A stretch of DNA of 23,921 nt, taken from positions 1 to 23,921 of the IMG/VR virus record IMGVR_UViG_3300038954_000699; one strand, written 5' to 3'. How positions within the stretch are numbered: position 1 is the first letter of the stretch; each line of letters opens with the position of its first letter. The notes under the pieces are model-generated. The model ran no database searches. It was not told where the DNA came from and worked only from the letters and a program-made list of their open reading frames with translations. The stretch is from a virus. The translations under genes and the position numbers were made by a program. Below are positions 3,311-17,376 of the stretch, in pieces.

Positions 3311-3727
3311 ATGGATAGACTGGAACGCATTGAAAATAAGGTTGACGCCCTATTAGAAAAGGTTGATGCTATTGCTGCTAAGTTGGACGATCCTAATGTT
3401 GAGGTAATGACCTTTAAAGACAGCCAGATTGAAGTATTGGCAGCCTTGCTAAAGGCATATTGGGATTTGGCGAGTGAAGATGACCTGAAGTCAGAATATT
3501 TACAACAAGGCAGATATGGCCGTGAATACATTTTCATGGCTGATATTCGTAAGCGGGCAAACCTTCTTTTGGATAAGAAATTATCACCCCAAGCAGTGGG
3601 GAACCTAGTTAGAGATGTGCTTGATCTGGAAGTTGGGAAGCGCCAGGGGAAGGGTGTTCCGGTGTATTTTGATCGTGAACATGCTCTTGAACTGGCCGCT
3701 CATTACGGTTTCGATATGAATAAATAG
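3311..3727 (+). CDS. Small protein repeating the primase C-terminal domain
   Basis: The 138-residue product has no family name I recognise. Residues 1-32 form a likely coiled coil (LERIENKVDALLEKVDAI). Residues about 67-138 are clearly homologous to the last ~90 residues of the preceding primase-helicase: both share a DIR.RAN segment, PQ.VGN..R..L.LEVG.RQG.GVPVY.D, and a final YG. This looks like a partial gene duplication joined to a new coiled-coil start. A role as a partner or regulator of the replication protein is inferred. The ATG at 3311 sits 7 bases after GGGAG; a GTG at 3308 is a weaker alternative. Confidence 0.8.
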   Translation: MDRLERIENKVDALLEKVDAIAAKLDDPNVEVMTFKDSQIEVLAALLKAYWDLASEDDLKSEYLQQGRYGREYIFMADIRKRANLLLDKKLSPQAVGNLVRDVLDLEVGKRQGKGVPVYFDREHALELAAHYGFDMNK

Positions 3728-3741
3728 AAACTTACAATCAA

Positions 3742-3874
3742 AATAGTGTACAGGTGAGGACAAAAAGCCAAAAATGTGGGTCTCTGAAATGAAATGTGAT
3801 TTGCAATGTTTAAATTTTTACATTTCATTTGAAATGGGCTCAAAAACGAGTTTCTTAATCACCTGTACACTATT
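3742..3874. repeat. Nested inverted repeats in AT-rich region (possible origin or regulatory element)
   Basis: An outer perfect 16-base inverted repeat (AATAGTGTACAGGTGA at 3742-3757, complement at 3859-3874) encloses an inner perfect 11-base repeat (AAATGAAATGT at 3787-3797, complement at 3820-3830). Both share the same centre within one base. The stretch is distinctly A+T-rich compared with flanking genes and has no credible gene. A replication origin, a paired operator or a small MITE-like insertion are all possible. The outer arm contains the GTGTAC core seen in the repeats at 4002-4031. Confidence 0.65.
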
Positions 3875-4001
3875 CCAATCTAAGAAAATGGAAAATATCT
3901 CGAAAACTTGCAAAAACATGCTGATTATGGTGCTTATATGTATATATTTCTCTTTATATAAGCGAGAATGCGAAAAATTTGCAATGGGCGTATTTTGAAA
4001 G

Positions 4002-4078
4002 GTGTACTTCAAGTGTTCTTTTAGTGTACTTGGTTGTTTTTTATTGGCTAAAGCACACTATTGGGGATGAAGCACACT
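4002..4078. repeat. Iteron-like repeats: three GTGT(A/T)CTT plus two AGCACACT
   Basis: GTGTACTT occurs at 4002-4009, GTGTTCTT at 4013-4020 and GTGTACTT at 4024-4031, each spaced by exactly 11 bases, about one helical turn. Two related copies in the other orientation, AGCACACT, lie at 4052-4059 and 4071-4078. Evenly phased direct repeats beside an AT-rich inverted repeat and between replication genes are typical of an initiator-binding or repressor-binding region. Between 3875 and 4001 I see only AT-rich sequence. Confidence 0.6.
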
Positions 4079-6422: not shown

Positions 6423-7451
6423 ATGTCTGATGATATGTTGTTTGCTCCGAGTGAGGTGCGAGATCGGAAGAAGCGGGATGGGCAAGATGTGTTTGTTCGG
6501 TTTATGAGGCGGTGGTTTACGCCGGTTGCGTTGGTGTGGTTGGTGTTTGTGTTTGTGGTTTTTGGGGTGGCGCATAGGAGGCGTTTAGTGGAGGAGGCGG
6601 CGCAAACTCCCATGAGCGCAGACGGGCGACTCAACGAGTCGCCCGTACCGAGCGTTACGCTGTTGCCATCGCAAACTCCCACGAGTTTGCGTGGCGAGAT
6701 GGCTGTGGAGACTCAGCCTTCTCGCGCAACGGATACTGTGTCGCCGGTTCCGACGAAGACTGTAGCGCCGGTTCCCACGAACCGGCGTGGCGAGATGGCG
6801 CATACGAGCACGCCTTCTCGCGCAACGCCGTTGCCGAGTGAGACGCCGCTGCCCAGCCCGACGCCGGATTATGAGGCCATTGAGGATGCCAGGTTGACGC
6901 AGTCTTGGGTGGCGTTCGATGATCAGCAGGAGCAATGGCGAAGGCAAGAGGCGTTGAAGCTGGAGCTGAGGCGTTATGCCGGTATTGGCGGGATTGTGGT
7001 GGTGACGACGTTTTTGCTTGGTATTGTGTTGTGGTTGCTTTTGAATTTGTGGTCGTCTGGGGAATTGGATGATGGCGCAGAATCTCTTGATCCTGCGTGG
7101 CGAGAAGGGCAAGGGGATGCGCCCATCTCGCGCAAGGCGCCAGAGGAGGAGTGGGTTCGGCTGGAGCTGAAGAGTGAGAATCGGAAGTTGTGGAGTAAGT
7201 ATCCGGTTGAGAAGCGGGTTTTGCGCCAGTGGGCTCAGGTTGCGCTGAACGGAGGGAGTATTGCTATTCGGAGATGGGCAGGGGATGATAAGCCGTTTAG
7301 CCGTGCGGAGTATGAGAAGTTCATCGAGTATTGGCTAGAGGGCGGTGTTTTGAAGGATAAGTATGAGGGGATGGAGAATTCTGAGCGGATTGTGACGGAG
7401 CCGGGCAAAGAGGTTTTGAAGGCTATTTTGGTTGAATTGGGGGGTGTGTAG
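6423..7451 (+). CDS. Two-TM membrane protein with repeat-encoded linker
   Basis: The 342-residue protein is not recognised. Transmembrane segments are predicted at about 32-50 and 186-212. Between them is a Pro/Ser/Thr-rich, low-complexity stretch (TPLPSETPLPSPTP), and after TM2 is a charged cytoplasmic-type domain containing WSKYPVEKRVLRQWAQ. At least three two-hairpin palindromic repeats and one further hairpin lie in frame inside the gene, giving peptides such as RRGEMA and SRAT in the linker and SLDPAWRE after TM2. The start is chosen at ATG 6423, 5 bases after GGGAGG. The repeats probably expanded the linker; the C-terminal domain may be winged-helix-like (inference). Confidence 0.7.
   Translation: MSDDMLFAPSEVRDRKKRDGQDVFVRFMRRWFTPVALVWLVFVFVVFGVAHRRRLVEEAAQTPMSADGRLNESPVPSVTLLPSQTPTSLRGEMAVETQPSRATDTVSPVPTKTVAPVPTNRRGEMAHTSTPSRATPLPSETPLPSPTPDYEAIEDARLTQSWVAFDDQQEQWRRQEALKLELRRYAGIGGIVVVTTFLLGIVLWLLLNLWSSGELDDGAESLDPAWREGQGDAPISRKAPEEEWVRLELKSENRKLWSKYPVEKRVLRQWAQVALNGGSIAIRRWAGDDKPFSRAEYEKFIEYWLEGGVLKDKYEGMENSERIVTEPGKEVLKAILVELGGV
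6622..6646 (+). repeat. ACGGGCGACTC hairpin within membrane-protein gene
   Basis: ACGGGCGACTC (6622-6632) pairs with its exact complement at 6636-6646 around an AAC loop. It is preceded by CGCAAACTCCCATGAG, similar to hairpin 1 of the two-hairpin family, so it is probably a related or truncated copy. Confidence 0.7.
6671..6725 (+). repeat. Two-hairpin palindromic repeat, copy 2 (in gene)
   Basis: Hairpin 1: GCAAACTC (6671-6678) with its complement at 6683-6690. Hairpin 2: GCGAGA then GGCTG (6694-6705) with CAGCC then TCTCGC (6714-6725), with a T/T mismatch between the two helices. It is read through in frame. Confidence 0.85.
6766..6821 (+). repeat. Two-hairpin palindromic repeat, copy 3 (in gene)
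   Basis: Hairpin 1: CGCCGGTTC (6766-6774) with its complement at 6779-6787. Hairpin 2: GCGAGA and GGCG (6790-6800) with CGCC and TCTCGC (6811-6821). The arms differ from copy 2 on both sides, so pairing is preserved by compensating changes. Confidence 0.85.
7076..7131 (+). repeat. Two-hairpin palindromic repeat, copy 4 (in gene)
   Basis: Hairpin 1 pairs CGCAG-ATC with GAT-CTGCG (7076-7097) around TCTT, with one A/C mismatch. Hairpin 2 pairs GCGAGA and GGGC (7100-7110) with GCCC and TCTCGC (7121-7131). It encodes the SLDPAWRE segment after TM2. Confidence 0.8.
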
Positions 7452-7518: not shown

Positions 7519-7572
7519 GCAAGATCTCTTGATCTTGCATGGCGAGAAGTCGCGGATGATGCTCTTTCTCGC
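7519..7572 (+). repeat. Two-hairpin palindromic repeat, copy 5 (intergenic)
   Basis: Hairpin 1: GCAAGATC (7519-7526) with its complement at 7531-7538 around TCTT. Hairpin 2: GCGAGA (7542-7547) with TCTCGC (7567-7572). It lies in the 170-base gap before the gene at 7622. Confidence 0.8.
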
Positions 7573-7621: not shown

Positions 7622-7906
7622 GTGAGCGGAACAGGGAATCGGGTTATGTATGTTGCTGGTAAGCGGTGGCCACATGCGGTTGGGGAGGCTGTGCCTGGTA
7701 TCAAAGGCGGGGCGGACTCGGTTGTGGCGAATGTGGCTTATTCAACGGGTTTGAAAAAAATCCATGTAAGACGGTTTGGAGATGCTCCAGACGTGGGGAA
7801 GTACCGTCGTTTGGCTGGCGAGGATGCGGTTGTGCTGGCGTGGGATGACGGGGATCAGGGCGATGCGTTGGTGTATGATTTGCTGGTCCTGTGGAAGGAG
7901 CTATGA
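7622..7906 (+). CDS. Hypothetical protein
   Basis: The 94-residue product is not recognised and has no membrane span. It reads as a small mixed alpha/beta protein with VVLAWDDGDQGDALVYDLL near the end. I place the start at GTG 7622 because AAAGGAG lies 4 bases upstream; ATG 7646 would be an alternative with no ribosome-binding site. The stop overlaps the start of the next gene (TGATG), so both are probably translated together. Confidence 0.6.
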   Translation: MSGTGNRVMYVAGKRWPHAVGEAVPGIKGGADSVVANVAYSTGLKKIHVRRFGDAPDVGKYRRLAGEDAVVLAWDDGDQGDALVYDLLVLWKEL

Positions 7907-8205
7907 TGAAGGCGTGGGTTTGCAGGGAGTGCGGGGCGATTTTGGGGCGGGTGAGGCGGAATGGGAGCGGGGTGAGGCAGTTGATGCTGTATCGGGAGGC
8001 GATCGATGGCTCTGGCGAGGGCGATATGGCGGATGTGGATGTGATTGCGGTTGTGGAGGGGTATGCGACGGAGGTAAAGTGTTCGCTGCCGGGGTGCGGG
8101 GCGACTCGGACGTGGATGCCCGGGCAGGAGGCGCTGGATAGGATTATTGAACGGTGCAGGAGGGGCCAGAGGGGCCATAAGGGCCAAACGGTTCAGAGGA
8201 GGTAG
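7906..8205 (+). CDS. Small zinc-ribbon protein
   Basis: The 99-residue product has two cysteine pairs: CRECG near the N-terminus (C6, C9) and CSLPGCG in the middle, spaced as in a treble-clef or zinc-ribbon fold. Such proteins bind nucleic acid or act as adaptors; the specific role is unknown. Its C-terminus is basic (RGQRGHKGQTVQRR). The ATG at 7906 follows AAGGAG by 5 bases and overlaps the upstream stop; ATG 7903 is also possible. Confidence 0.65.
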   Translation: MKAWVCRECGAILGRVRRNGSGVRQLMLYREAIDGSGEGDMADVDVIAVVEGYATEVKCSLPGCGATRTWMPGQEALDRIIERCRRGQRGHKGQTVQRR

Positions 8206-8208
8206 GAG

Positions 8209-8358
8209 ATGAAATGTACGATGACATGGTTAGTTGGCTTGCTTGGTGGGTTTGCGTTAGGTATGGCTGATAGCAGCATAAAGTTGATTGCTTATGGTAT
8301 TTTGACGCTGCTATTATTTGGATTTGTGCTGTATTTTTGGCCTGAAGAGGGAAACTGA
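8209..8358 (+). CDS. Small membrane protein (49 aa)
   Basis: The 49-residue product is almost entirely hydrophobic, with two predicted membrane spans: WLVGLLGGFALGMA and LIAYGILTLLLFGFVLYFW. The ATG at 8209 is preceded by an AGAGGAGGTAGGAG ribosome-binding region and lies 3 bases after the previous stop. Its composition is less G-rich than neighbours. The function is unknown; a small holin-like or stress membrane peptide is possible but cannot be distinguished here. Confidence 0.65.
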   Translation: MKCTMTWLVGLLGGFALGMADSSIKLIAYGILTLLLFGFVLYFWPEEGN

Positions 8359-8371
8359 TGCGGTTTGGTGG

Positions 8372-8399
8372 TTGTGTTATGGCTGGGTTTTGGTATAAT
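8372..8399 (+). promoter_or_regulatory. Extended -10 promoter for the putative small RNA
   Basis: A perfect TATAAT lies at 8394-8399, preceded by TGG, so it is an extended -10 element. The -35 region (TTGTGT at 8372) is weak, as usual with extended -10 promoters. The expected start point at about 8406 coincides with the first base of the long stem that begins at 8407. Confidence 0.7.
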
Positions 8400-8405
8400 G
8401 TAGTC

Positions 8406-8569
8406 AAGCAGGACAGCTTGATTGGCGATTTTTGTGTTTTATGCCGATCTTCACAACCGAATACGTTTGTTGTGGGAAGAGACCCGCAACAGAACCCAAT
8501 GGGAACCCTATCGCCAGAGCTGTCCTGCTCCCGATCGGCTACCGTTGGCTCTTCTGTTGTGGGTTTTTT
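8406..8569 (+). ncRNA. Putative structured non-coding RNA, about 165 nt
   Basis: The predicted transcript opens with AGCAGGACAGCU (8407-8418), which is exactly complementary to 8518-8529. Inside, TGGCGAT (8423-8429) pairs with 8510-8516, and CACAAC (8452-8457) pairs with 8469-8474 with an adjoining 4-base stem. Downstream, 8482-8494 pairs with 8552-8564, followed by six T residues, forming an intrinsic terminator. This terminator stem crosses the main stem, so the two are mutually exclusive or form a pseudoknot. No known RNA family is recognised. The interval is open in one frame, but it has no codon-like pattern and the next gene has its own ribosome-binding site. Confidence 0.65.
8552..8569 (+). 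terminator. Intrinsic terminator, 3' arm and T tract
   Basis: TTCTGTTGTGGGT (8552-8564) pairs with ACCCGCAACAGAA at 8482-8494 with one G-U pair and runs into TTTTTT. The long loop contains the 3' half of the other stem, which suggests conditional termination. Confidence 0.65.
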
Positions 8570-8591
8570 CGTTTCTGGAAAGGAGCAGGAC

Positions 8592-8816
8592 ATGTGCTTG
8601 GATGATTTGGCGTTGGCGATGGAGGGGCGGCTGGTATGGCGGCTGAGAGATTTGGTTGCGGGGTGGCTGGCCAGCACAAGGTTGGGGTGCTATGTTGCTC
8701 ACGTGTGGGCGGGGGAGCAGGGGTATTTGTTTGTTCGTGAAGGTGAGATGGCGGATTACGATGATGAGGAAGGGCGATGCGGTGCATCGCCCCTACGTGG
8801 GGGGAATGATGTCTAG
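8592..8816 (+). CDS. Hypothetical protein upstream of the integrase
   Basis: The 74-residue product is not recognised. It begins at ATG 8592, 6 bases after AAAGGAG at 8579-8585; the same frame is open back to 8358 but that part overlaps the structured RNA. The protein is helical then charged (MEGRLVWRLRDLVAGWLAS, MADYDDEEG). Its last residues (RCGASPLRGGNDV) are encoded by a GGGCGATGC hairpin repeat. It overlaps the integrase start by 8 bases, so it may be translationally coupled to it. Confidence 0.55.
   Translation: MCLDDLALAMEGRLVWRLRDLVAGWLASTRLGCYVAHVWAGEQGYLFVREGEMADYDDEEGRCGASPLRGGNDV
8772..8792. repeat. GGGCGATGC hairpin repeat, copy 2
   Basis: Identical 9-base arms and GGT loop to the copy at 6387, followed again by CCTACG. 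It is translated as the C-terminus of the small gene and lies 17 bases upstream of the integrase start. Confidence 0.85.
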
Positions 8817-9759
8817 GTTTTTGAGGGAGTTTGCGGATGTGCTGGGGGAGCAGGGGCGCTCGGCCCGGACGGTGGATACGTACGTGGGCTGGGCGGAGCG
8901 GTTTATTCGGTTTCATGGGATACGGCATCCGCAGGAGATGGGGGCGGATGAGGTGCAGGATTTTGTTGATTATTTGGCTTTGGACCGGCAGGTGGCGGCT
9001 GGGACGCAAAATCAGGCTGTGAGTGCGCTGACGATTCTGTATGAGGATTTTATGGGGGTGGAGCTTGGTGATTTGGGGGATGTGCGGGCAAAGCGGCGGA
9101 AAGGGTTGCCTGCTACGGTGTCCAAGGCGGAGGCGATGGATGTGTTCGATAAGATGAGGGGCCAGTTCCGCTTGGGGGCGCAGTTGTGTTTTGGGGCCGG
9201 TTTGCGGTTGTGTGAGGTGGTGGGCCTGCGGGTGAGGGATGTGGATTTTGAAGCTATGAAGATTTGGGTGCGGGGTGCGACGTGCGACGTGCGTTGGACA
9301 GTGCTGCCTGAATCTTTGGTCGATGTGTTGCGGTTGCAGTTGGACCGTGCCAGGATGGTGTGGCGGGGGGATAAGTTGGATGGGCGTGGGGGGATGCCGC
9401 TGGATGGGGGCAGGCGGTTTGTTTGGGCGTGGTGGTGGTTGTTTCCGTCGTCGAGGTTGTCGGATGATCCGCAGGGGCGGAAGCGGCGCTGGCATGTGCA
9501 TGAGAGTACGTTTCAGAAGAAGATTCGCAGTGCGGCGCAGAGGGCACAGCTTCAGCGCCGGTGTACGGCAAGTATTTTGCGGAATTCGTTTGCGGTGGCG
9601 CTGTTTCGTCGGGGGGAGAATGCGAGGGTGATTCAGAAGTTGATGGGGCACGCGTCAATTCGTTCGACGCTGAGGTATAAGCGTTGTTTGGCGGGGCAGA
9701 ATGTTGTCTCGCCGTTGGATCGGTTGGAGATTCGCGAGAGTGAGTCTCGCGAGGGGTAG
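8809..9759 (+). CDS. intI: Integron integrase (IntI-type tyrosine recombinase), degenerate active site
   Basis: The 316-residue product has the length and domain order of integron integrases, which recombine folded attC sites with attI. The N-terminal SAM-like domain spans about 1-90. The IntI-specific insert is recognisable (WWWLFPSSRLSDDPQGRKRR, then HESTFQKKIR), and the C-terminus has the VVSPLDRL motif typical of the family. Catalytic residues: R133 (GLRLCE), R258, H281 (LMGH) and Y290 are present. The HxLRH box reads SILRN, losing the histidine at 255, and the lysine loop is replaced by GATCDVRW, encoded by a TGCGACG tandem duplication. Activity is therefore doubtful. ATG 8806 or 8809 both fit; the ribosome-binding site is weak. 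Confidence 0.9.
   Translation: MSRFLREFADVLGEQGRSARTVDTYVGWAERFIRFHGIRHPQEMGADEVQDFVDYLALDRQVAAGTQNQAVSALTILYEDFMGVELGDLGDVRAKRRKGLPATVSKAEAMDVFDKMRGQFRLGAQLCFGAGLRLCEVVGLRVRDVDFEAMKIWVRGATCDVRWTVLPESLVDVLRLQLDRARMVWRGDKLDGRGGMPLDGGRRFVWAWWWLFPSSRLSDDPQGRKRRWHVHESTFQKKIRSAAQRAQLQRRCTASILRNSFAVALFRRGENARVIQKLMGHASIRSTLRYKRCLAGQNVVSPLDRLEIRESESREG
9732..9752. repeat. Hairpin at 3' end of intI
   Basis: TCGCGAGA (9732-9739) pairs with TCTCGCGA (9745-9752) around GTGAG. It overlaps the last codons of intI, just before the cassette insertion point, and could belong to the attI site or be a relic of the GCGAGA...TCTCGC repeat. Confidence 0.6.
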
Positions 9760-12300: not shown

Positions 12301-12960
12301 ATGGGAATGAATGTTTCGAAGGGGAATATGTATGCGTTTGTAACGCATACGTTCAATACGGTCAAAGGGGTTTGCCCGCATGATTGTTCGTACTGTTATA
12401 TGAAGCGATGGGGGAATCTCAAGAAGGTGCGGTTGGATGAGCGTGAGTTCGGAACGGATTTGGGGGCGGGGAATTTCGTTTTTGTGGGGTCGAGCTGCGA
12501 TATGTTTGCGGATGCTATTCCGACGGGGTGGATCGAGAGGACGATGGCGTATCTGAAGACGTTCGATAACCGGTATTTGTTTCAGAGCAAGAACCCGGTG
12601 CGGATGTTGGGTTGGGTTGATCCGGACGAACTTGATGCTGTTGTTTGCACAACGATTGAAACAAACCGTTGGTATCCAGATATTATGAAAAACTCTCCCA
12701 CGCCAGACTTACGAGCTGATGCGATGTCCATGCTGCCGCTTGAGCGGTATGTGACGATCGAGCCGATTATGCGGTTTGATTTGGATGAGTTGGTGGATAT
12801 GATTCGACATAGCGGGGCGGTTTCGGTGAATATTGGTGCTGACAGCGGCGGGAATGGGCTGCCTGAGCCGAGTGCTGATGAGGTCTTGGCGTTGATTGAG
12901 CGCCTGGAGCGGTTTGTGGTTGTGCGGCGGAAACCCAATTTGCAGCGGTTGTTGGTTTAG
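12301..12960 (+). CDS. DUF5131-type (phage Gp37/Gp68-like) radical-SAM-like protein
   Basis: The 219-residue product matches the pattern of the phage Gp37/Gp68 family (DUF5131): a conserved start with THTFN, then C25-x3-C29-x2-C32 (CPHDCSYCY) as in radical-SAM iron-sulfur proteins, and later VFVGSSCDMF and VTIEPIM segments. No activity has been established for this family as far as I know; a radical SAM reaction is inferred from the three-cysteine motif. GGGAG precedes ATG 12301. It starts 22 bases after the last attC core, but no matching attC lies downstream, so it is probably a phage gene and not a sixth cassette. Confidence 0.85.
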   Translation: MGMNVSKGNMYAFVTHTFNTVKGVCPHDCSYCYMKRWGNLKKVRLDEREFGTDLGAGNFVFVGSSCDMFADAIPTGWIERTMAYLKTFDNRYLFQSKNPVRMLGWVDPDELDAVVCTTIETNRWYPDIMKNSPTPDLRADAMSMLPLERYVTIEPIMRFDLDELVDMIRHSGAVSVNIGADSGGNGLPEPSADEVLALIERLERFVVVRRKPNLQRLLV

Positions 12961-15832: not shown

Positions 15833-17376
15833 CGGTTGCCGTTGCTCAGGGAAACAAGCAAGGTATGGCTTTGGCTGCTGACCGGGTGCTGCGGGAGCGG
15901 GCAAGGCGTTATTTGATTGATTTTGCTACGTATGTAGCGCCCTGGTATGAGCCTGCTCCGCACCATGTTTTGTTGGCGAAGTATCTGGAAAAGGTGGAGA
16001 CGTATATTCGAACGGGGGGCAAAGAGGGGATTGGGCGTTTGTTGATTTTTATGCCGCCACGCCACGGCAAAACGGAGATGGTGAGCCGGTTATTCCCTGC
16101 TTGGTTGTTGGGGCGTTTGCCTGACAGCCGGGTGATGTTGACGAGTTACGGCGCTGATTTGGCGAATAAGAACAGCAAGGCAGTGCGAGATTATATTTTG
16201 GGTCAACGGTATCAGGCTGTTTTTGGGGTGAATTCTTCGGTGGATGTGCCGGTGATGATGAGCGATGACAGCCGAAGCGTGCAGAGCTGGGAGCTTGCTT
16301 CTCCACATCGGGGCGGGTCGGTGGCTGCCGGTGTTGGCGGTGCTTTGGTTGGGATGGGTGCTCATCTGTTGGTTCCGGATGACTTGTTCAAAAACCGCAA
16401 GGAGGCGGAAAACCAGGGACACAGAGATGTGGTGTGGGAGTGGTGGCGGAGTGCGGCGTATACCCGCCTGGAAAAAGGCGGCGCTGTTGTGGGAATGATG
16501 ACACGGTGGCACCCGGATGATTGGGCTGGCAGGCTGTTGAAGGCGATGGCAAATGACCCGCTGGCGGATGAGTATGTGGTGTTGAGTTTGCCTGCACTGG
16601 CAGAAACGCCCGATAAGGAGGATGAGCGCAGCCGGGTTGAGTTTTTACAAGACGGGATTTGGCCGCCTGAGCGGGATCCACTGGGGAGGGAGGCAGGTGA
16701 TCCGCTGTGGGGGGACAAGTATGACCGTGATGCGCTGGATCAGTTTCGGGCGAATGTGGGGTTGTATGAATGGGCTGCTCAGTATCAGCAGAGGCCGTAT
16801 TTGCGTTCGGGTGAGTTTTTCAAGCGGGAATGGTTCCAGGTAGTGGATTCCGGCCCGAAGCCTGATGATGTAAGAGCAAGGGTGCGTTATTGGGATAAGG
16901 CGGCATCGGGTGGGGGCGACTATTCGGTGGGCGTTTTGATGTCGGTGACGAGGGACGGATTTTATTACGTGGAGCATGTGGCACGGGGTCGATGGACGCC
17001 GGGGAAGCGTGACGCTGTGATGGTTGAGACGGCGTTGATGGATAAGCGGCGAGATGGTCCAAGGATGACGACGTGGCATCAACAGGATCCGGGCAGTGCG
17101 GGGAAGGACAGCGCCGAGGCGACGAATCGGAAGTTGGCTGAGGCGGGTGTGCGGGCTCGGTTTGAGCCGGTAACTGGGAATAAGGAAGTGCGGGCGGATC
17201 CGTGGAGCAGTATGTGCCAGGCGGGGAAGGTTCGTTTGGTTCGCTCGGGATGGAACAGTGAGTTCGTTGAGGAGCATGTGGCTTTTCCGAAAGGGAATTA
17301 TGACGACCAGGTGGATGCGGCCAGCAGTGCTTTTAGCGAGTTGGCGAAGCCGGTACGGGAATCGAAGATTTTATGA
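15829..17376 (+). CDS. terL: Terminase large subunit
   Basis: The 515-residue product is the packaging motor: an ATPase joined to a nuclease. The Walker A motif reads PPRHGKTE (76-83, K81), and the Walker B motif LLVPDDL has D184-D185. The RNase H-like nuclease has D356 (RYWDKAA) and the C-terminal DDQVD with D492, D493 and D496. This fits the terminase_6C/psiM2-like type. The start is GTG 15829, overlapping the small subunit stop (GTGA); ATG 15862 is an alternative, but the conserved part begins later. The end overlaps the portal start by 4 bases. Confidence 0.93.
   Translation: MTVAVAQGNKQGMALAADRVLRERARRYLIDFATYVAPWYEPAPHHVLLAKYLEKVETYIRTGGKEGIGRLLIFMPPRHGKTEMVSRLFPAWLLGRLPDSRVMLTSYGADLANKNSKAVRDYILGQRYQAVFGVNSSVDVPVMMSDDSRSVQSWELASPHRGGSVAAGVGGALVGMGAHLLVPDDLFKNRKEAENQGHRDVVWEWWRSAAYTRLEKGGAVVGMMTRWHPDDWAGRLLKAMANDPLADEYVVLSLPALAETPDKEDERSRVEFLQDGIWPPERDPLGREAGDPLWGDKYDRDALDQFRANVGLYEWAAQYQQRPYLRSGEFFKREWFQVVDSGPKPDDVRARVRYWDKAASGGGDYSVGVLMSVTRDGFYYVEHVARGRWTPGKRDAVMVETALMDKRRDGPRMTTWHQQDPGSAGKDSAEATNRKLAEAGVRARFEPVTGNKEVRADPWSSMCQAGKVRLVRSGWNSEFVEEHVAFPKGNYDDQVDAASSAFSELAKPVRESKIL

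Follow-up and report, generated by a model that had tools for sequence, protein, structure and literature searches.

We describe an RNA element that appears to belong to a new family of phage regulatory cassettes of about 185 nt, one member of which lies in the window, as we call the whole 23,921-base stretch of DNA analysed here, which is a virus record of IMG/VR and to which all window coordinates refer (the parts of the element and the genes next to it are on the + strand). The small structured RNA at 8407-8569 is almost certainly real, and the pairing of its anti-Shine-Dalgarno strand with the ribosome-binding site of the next gene is very probably functional. Our best reading of the comparison of members, on which we stand evenly divided, is that the RNA may be a base-pairing translation gate, similar to immunity RNAs, that acts on this ribosome-binding site. 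Family searches of the window named SSB, ParA-like, integrase and terminase genes, and those for capsid and portal were assigned by the order of the genes together with their matches to annotated phages.

Structure of the RNA in the window

The promoter (8372-8399) consists of an extended -10, TGG TATAAT (TGGTATAAT, hexamer at 8394-8399), and a weak best-fit -35, TTGTGT (8372-8377), separated by a 16-nt spacer. The initial annotation held that a perfect extended -10 sets the transcript start exactly at a 12-base closing stem. The extended -10 stands, the start can only be expected within a few bases of the stem, and the stem itself had been correctly located: it is a perfect helix of 12 bp (P1, 8407-8418/8518-8529). 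Best-fit promoters are found in 11 of 11 members, with a TTGNNN -35, a spacer of 16-17 nt and TATAAT, TAAAAT or TAGAAT as the -10.

The 5' strand of P1 (A, 8407-8418) is a mimic of a Shine-Dalgarno sequence; by eye, a possible alternative local hairpin, AAGC[AGGACA]GCUU, can be drawn at 8406-8419. P2 (8423-8429/8510-8516) is nested inside P1, and a local hairpin, P3 (8452-8474), is read from the sequence with strands 8452-8457/8469-8474; P3-like hairpins are visible by eye, without a count, in several relatives. P4 is a long terminator-like stem followed by six T (8478-8568; core 8482-8494/8552-8564) that carries strand B in its apical region. This second stem had been described as crossing the first, and it does. 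P5 (8443-8449/8533-8539) crosses both, so that P1, P5 and P4 are mutually crossing, in the strand order a1 a5 a4 b1 b5 b4. The initial annotation had missed P2 and P5, as well as a copy of the 5' strand of P1 at the ribosome-binding site (A', 8582-8592); the sequence repeated in this way is called the key below. Folding gave the window element a z-score of -4.77, and 0 of 200 shuffles were equally stable.

Relatives of the element and extent of the family

Related phages were obtained by protein searches with the major capsid protein, the terminase and the small gene at 7903-8205, the upstream neighbour of the element, which was used as an anchor and which we read as zinc-ribbon-like from the conserved C/H residues of its 23-row alignment. 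L176 was the first relative found with the same layout in different letters. Layout scans then added L137; L195, L210 and L211; L246 and L290; and L097, L153 and L170, which with the window make 11 distinct members, the lineages L195/L246/L290, L210/L211 and L097/L153/L170 being non-independent. L097 lies in a contig binned as Anaerolineaceae bacterium SURF_68 (family Anaerolineaceae, Chloroflexota). The element is accessory, since 11 members stand against 84 loci matched by the anchor gene (window and duplicates included) and 105 terminase loci with more than 5 kb upstream.

The scan for the crossed layout gave 36 matches in 193 loci plus the window and 17 in one shuffled set; only three of the matches had TATAAT just upstream (window, L137 and L176), all of them relatives. 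The loosest scan returned 17 distinct sequences, the 11 members with P4 scores of at least 30 and 6 others, mostly repeat arrays, with scores of at most 22; one shuffled set yielded 1 match, with a P4 score of 18.5. As a control, promoter-proximal stretches were sought that share at least 9 nt with a Shine-Dalgarno region 140-215 nt further on. Counted with duplicate records, 26 of the 747 promoter/start combinations had such a stretch, and in every one of the 26 the shared 9-mer was the key of a member.

Scans of viral contigs with the integrase, the primase and the exact stem pattern found no close relatives, a distant blastn search of a phages collection with the element found no match, and an RNA homology search in the first loci found no member. 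An nhmmer match in L140 (E 0.097) was dropped, as to the eye it resembles another promoter-terminator stretch without A-B-A'. In a search of the GTDB class, the anchor gene was found in at least 2 of 396 genomes and the terminase in 23 of 396 at 1e-20; the RNA was absent by the stricter scan from 13 upstream regions taken from this search, none of which was among the matches of the looser scan.

Covariation and coding potential

A MAFFT alignment misaligned the helices. The helix cores were cut from each member and joined with spacers, and their pairs were counted. In 7 distinct rows, 203 of 203 cells were paired and 27 of 29 pairs had changed on both sides, against 31.5-51.2% paired in slid controls, which are weaker than they look because their columns run partly into the added constant spacer. 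In 10 rows from the 11 members (L290 was left out, its core being equal to that of L195), the pairs kept were 90/90 in P1, 50/50 in P2, 58/60 in P5, 90/90 in P4 and 90/90 in B:A'; in L153 only 4 of 6 P5 pairs are kept. When the 3' strands were permuted among members, the observed value was reached 0 (P1), 1 (P2), 0 (P5), 0 (P4) and 0 (B:A') times per 5000 permutations.

Compensatory changes, for which the initial annotation had proposed to look, occur at 4-9 positions in each of P1, P2, P4, P5 and B:A'. They cover 9/9 core positions of P1 in 10 rows, 8/9 core positions of P4 in 7 rows and 9/9 in 10 rows, while both-side changes were counted at 4/5 core positions of P2, 6/6 of P5 and 9/9 positions of B:A'. 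A value of 100% paired is partly a product of construction, because the core segments were chosen as pairs in each member; independent support comes from the permutations, from two natural allele pairs and from the layout scan taken together with its control. Judged from these letters, the predicted helix pairing is well supported, and the suggestion of a pseudoknotted, switch-like RNA has gained the covariation of 11 members. Few positions are invariant across members in what is an imperfect alignment.

Protein coding was considered as an explanation and rejected. The frame 8358-8592 is open in the window, and in 10 of 10 relatives the frame leading into the ATG has a stop 12-144 nt upstream of it, inside the element, which speaks against the conserved coding that had been named as evidence contrary to an RNA.

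A three-place key

Strand B (TGTCCTGCTCC, 8521-8531) is an anti-Shine-Dalgarno strand displayed in the loop of the hairpin GAGC[UGUCCU]GCUC (8517-8530). Its two partners are A (as P1) and 8582-8592 (11 bp), where the sequence of A is found a second time, at the ribosome-binding site of the gene that follows. This copy, A' (GGAGCAGGACA), comprises the Shine-Dalgarno sequence and the spacer and terminates in the A of the next gene's ATG.

The A-B-A' layout is present in 11 of 11 members, with nine different keys; L153 and L170 share one key and L195 and L290 another, though they are different phages. In 8 members, the A and A' of the same member share 9-11 nt, against 3-6 nt across members, except for L195/L290 with their common key. 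The comparison shows A, B and A' changing together across members and, on the same comparative grounds, the three-way complementarity and the crossed fold being maintained by selection. Looking for targets of the key elsewhere in its own phage (the window and six relatives' records), we found one-mismatch matches at window 10274 and once in L176, both off starts; of the two-mismatch matches in these records, two stand before a start codon, one each in L246 and L210.

Calculated B:A' duplexes range from -20.3 to -24.0 kcal/mol for the same key (mean -22.6, n=15) and from -3.7 to -21.7 kcal/mol for different keys (mean -10.0, n=106). Only one different-key pair lies below -19 kcal/mol, the Shine-Dalgarno strand of L137 with B of L211 (-21.7), and thus the keys are not fully orthogonal. 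The two keys, GAGACGTCCA (L137, 2765) and GAGACGCCAA (L211, 3898), are close, a natural case of possible cross-recognition.

In pseudoknot-free folding, P4 was the leading helix (P 0.99-1.0) of all 8 members tested, and in nascent RNA ending at B the probability of A:B was 0.90-1.0, again in 8 of 8 members tested. In the P4 fold, the loop of P4 contains B as a small hairpin, both in the window and in 5 of the 6 relatives folded, the exception being L176; what stays constant in most members is thus the Shine-Dalgarno/anti-Shine-Dalgarno pairing (GAG/CUC), with about 6 nt variable, L153 and L170 having a different constant part. Among 7 members whose free RNA was evaluated, A:B was the stronger pairing in 4 and B:A' in 1, while in the other 2 they came within 0.1 kcal/mol of each other. 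As A:B is often the stronger pairing, B may be hidden from other RNAs unless it is freed by P4 folding or by processing.

Natural allele pairs

L195 and L246 are 91.4% identical in the 3.6 kb that surround the element. From the -10 to the ATG, only the key tells them apart: GA in A and A' of L195 is AG in L246, and B differs to match, so that A/B/A' read GAGCTGACA/TGTCAGCTC/GAGCTGACA in L195 and GAGCTAGCA/TGCTAGCTC/GAGCTAGCA in L246. L304 equals L246 over 7,265 bases.

L210 and L211 differ at 82 of 9,263 aligned columns, all of them between the -10 hexamer and the ATG, and in a larger piece there are again 82 differences, in the element only. Elsewhere in the L211 record, divergence from L210 is confined to the low end, below about 2,600, where the genes look like distal tail genes from their ORF sizes and sequences; the two phages were seen to be otherwise identical over about 20 kb. 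The L210 record is probably complete, since it has a direct terminal repeat of 127 bases. Thus, the RNA cassette with its Shine-Dalgarno sequence, together with one record end, is what separates two otherwise identical phages.

Downstream genes and the integrase

In the window, the translation expected to be gated is that of a 74-aa ORF (8592-8816, stop at 8814-8816), inside which a tyrosine integrase (PF00589) starts (8806-9759). The overlap of this ORF with the ATG of the integrase at 8806 makes a coupling of the two plausible, and repression of the ORF could lower the integrase in this phage. The initial annotation had proposed that the RNA could control the integrase or downstream expression. 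The complementarity of B to the downstream Shine-Dalgarno sequence supports control of the downstream gene in a specific form, but the RNA is not a general integrase leader: among members whose records were searched, the overlap is found only in the window; the next ORF in the 10 relatives encodes another small protein of 99-173 aa; and the integrase, where found (L137, L176, L210 and L246), is more than 8 kb from the element, none being found in the record of L195. An integrase is present in 5 of 8 RNA-bearing records searched, in keeping with temperate phages, and the three without a match are shorter records (9.5-23 kb).

The 74-aa ORF has no significant match in Pfam, PHROGs or PADLOC (best E 0.47), and no significant family match was obtained for 8 downstream proteins in Pfam and PHROGs or for 5 in PADLOC. 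From five seeds, the downstream proteins (74-173 aa) gave five unrelated groups. The fold model of the L195 protein was poor (pLDDT 52.9), and that of the L176 protein was fair (71.0), with three main helices.

A GAACN4GTTC box adjoins the RNA promoter, 53 nt upstream of A, in L097, L153 and L170 (3 of 11 members). It resembles the Gram-positive LexA box, and we take these boxes to be possible SOS boxes; if they are LexA sites, the RNA would be damage-induced, unlike a constantly made immunity RNA. GAAC-N4-GTTC was also seen just upstream of the downstream-type gene at 7714 in L176, 7204 in L159 and 4637 in L276; L159 and L276, which carry homologues of the L176 gene, were unmatched by the RNA scans.

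Other elements in these phages

Related phages contain a second promoter-leader-terminator element upstream of genes that we read as holin-like (L137 3190-3300; L139 about 3430-3660; L117 about 560-690; L171 about 7160-7260; L210 7210-7310). It often has GGAGATGAGCGCC at the terminator, the exact motif being found in 32 of 370 loci, and the sole GATGAGCGC of the window lies within the terminase gene, at 16621. This element is comparable to a late-promoter leader like lambda pR'-tR'. Repeated GTGTAC-type motifs at 3733-4030 of the window, downstream of a primase-like gene, are replication-iteron-like, and iteron-like arrays with different letters were seen in related phages. Repeat-like stretches (gcgatgcggtgcatcgcccctacg; caagatctcttgatcttgc) lie inside or beside genes at 8775-8800 and 7520-7570 of the window; that at 8775-8800 is the C-terminus of the 74-aa ORF, and similar phrases recur in the translated ORFs of the window. 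There is also a DUF5131/radical-SAM-like gene at 12301-12960, with apparent relatives, judged by eye, after the anchor gene in L120 (after 4349) and L092 (10310 on).

Comparison with known RNAs

An Rfam search, which the initial annotation had recommended, brought no family up to its gathering score, either in the window or at the loci of the 10 relatives, and a lax search of the window region returned only two microRNA models and one lncRNA model. The riboswitch classes in Rfam had no match in the window and relatives, nor had 6S RNA, tmRNA and ribozymes (Rfam and ARAGORN for the window, Rfam for the relatives). A literature search, with most subscription papers outside its reach, found no description of this RNA.

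In the immunity system of phage P4, the central segment is named seqB and seqC lies near the start region of a gene. The CI RNA of this phage has two complementary partners, of which seqA lies upstream of it and seqC downstream; it comes from the processing of a longer transcript and acts by terminating transcription prematurely (PMC4825925). The likeness lies in a central segment complementary to sequences upstream and downstream, here A-B-A' in every member; the RNA described here differs in its crossed three-helix fold, in the terminator-like stem between B and the target and in the position of A' exactly on the Shine-Dalgarno sequence. With the window and L195 as queries, a distant blastn search of 50,697 phage records returned at most chance matches.

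C4 is located upstream of its target on one transcript. In phages P1/P7, C4 is an RNA of about 77 nt after RNase P cleavage whose three hairpins carry two antisense loops: a', which determines the target, and b', which lies partly over ribosome-binding sites; the motif has an Rfam model (PMC5320573). A segment complementary to the ribosome-binding site is found here too, with covariation along the whole of B:A', whereas a single A-B-A' key and crossed helices take the place of the a'/b' loop pair in three hairpins, and the C4 covariance model of Rfam matched neither the window nor any locus of the 10 relatives. We would file the RNA in neither family, as the C4 model and the two-loop form do not fit it and the blastn search gave no sign of homology to CI.

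IsrK acts via a downstream ORF and an antirepressor operon. In Salmonella Gifsy-1, this prophage sRNA (IsrK/STnc1160) and a read-through transcript are made from one promoter, and the description accessible in PMC4825925 does not mention a three-copy key such as the one present here. AbiF/RCd22 of a C. difficile prophage comprises a structured RNA, a terminator and a gene reached by read-through, and RCd22 binds the AbiF protein (PMC12373285). The order of RNA, terminator and gene is the same here; the Rfam abiF motif RF03085 was absent from the window and the loci of 10 relatives, and no Abi_2 protein was found among the downstream proteins searched. Translational riboswitches arrange an anti-anti-Shine-Dalgarno, an anti-Shine-Dalgarno and a Shine-Dalgarno sequence; unlike them, the RNA described here has no conserved binding core that could be seen, a hypervariable key and a terminator-like stem upstream of the Shine-Dalgarno sequence.

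Proposed mechanism and alternatives

We propose that the promoter would place the transcript start at A and that the RNA would be released at P4, with B displayed as a loop. B would then cover the ribosome-binding site of the downstream gene and keep it from being translated, both in cis, when the transcript reads through, and in trans, on the RNA of a related phage, while A would close the RNA and compete for B. Recognition between phages would be set by the variable key, which measures about 6 nt within the hairpin loop and 9-11 nt once the duplex has formed. Action in trans is mildly favoured by the own promoter and the terminator-like end ahead of the target, and by keys that differ between otherwise identical phages. 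An immunity-like role is put forward with some reserve, from the same kind of evidence. More speculatively, the RNA may be a hypervariable self/non-self barcode of temperate phages, in which the key at the Shine-Dalgarno sequence would define incompatibility groups; key diversity would be kept by selection for escape from same-key resident phages, and the family would evolve by whole-cassette exchange, as between L210 and L211, and by concerted three-site change, as between L195 and L246.

A serious rival, to our judgement an unlikely one, is a purely cis-acting switch of the riboswitch or attenuator kind, with A as the anti-anti-Shine-Dalgarno, B as the anti-Shine-Dalgarno and A' as the Shine-Dalgarno sequence, and nothing acting in trans. 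The pseudoknot would sense a ligand, a protein or the speed of transcription, P4 would be a leaky terminator, and the keys would drift under the three-way constraint. A-B-A' on one transcript is indeed the textbook layout of a translational switch, A:B is predicted to form in the nascent RNA of all members tested, three members (L097, L153 and L170) have only TTT after the P4 stem, and the key matches the start of the adjacent ORF in every case. Such a switch leaves unexplained, however, why 82 differences are gathered in less than 200 nt between phages identical over 9.2 kb, and why six bases of the key change in concert on an otherwise unchanged RNA (L195/L246); the scarcity of invariant positions, read from an imperfect alignment, is also unlike ligand-binding RNAs.

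It is improbable that the RNA silences a harmful small protein, whether through base pairing or through protein binding, in the manner of toxins or abortive-infection genes under RNA control (type I-like or type III-like). The order of RNA, terminator and small gene is that of AbiF/RCd22 (PMC12373285), and the GAACN4GTTC boxes just upstream of the gene in L176 and of its L159 and L276 homologues would suit such a gene. Against this, the searches of downstream proteins gave no toxin or AbiF match, these proteins vary between members, and a protein-binding RNA would need no copy of the key at the Shine-Dalgarno sequence. A DNA-level element near the integrase, either a recombination site or an insertion with target-site duplication, is most improbable, for although the direct repeats A and A' flank the element, the integrase gene follows it in the window and the cassette differs as a unit in L210/L211, B inside the element is the reverse complement of the repeat, P2, P4 and P5 covary with some G-U pairs, the L195 and L246 keys differ at the same genomic place, and the integrase is far from the element in four relatives and was not found in the record of L195.

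The base-pairing gate that we prefer would be built on an unusual structure, a crossed three-helix fold around an anti-Shine-Dalgarno strand. Immunity specificity set by an RNA is known for a few enterobacterial phages. In phages related to those of Anaerolineae (Chloroflexota), the natural allele pairs isolate the letters of specificity, and the question of whether a few coordinated bases may switch the immunity group is made directly testable with natural sequences.
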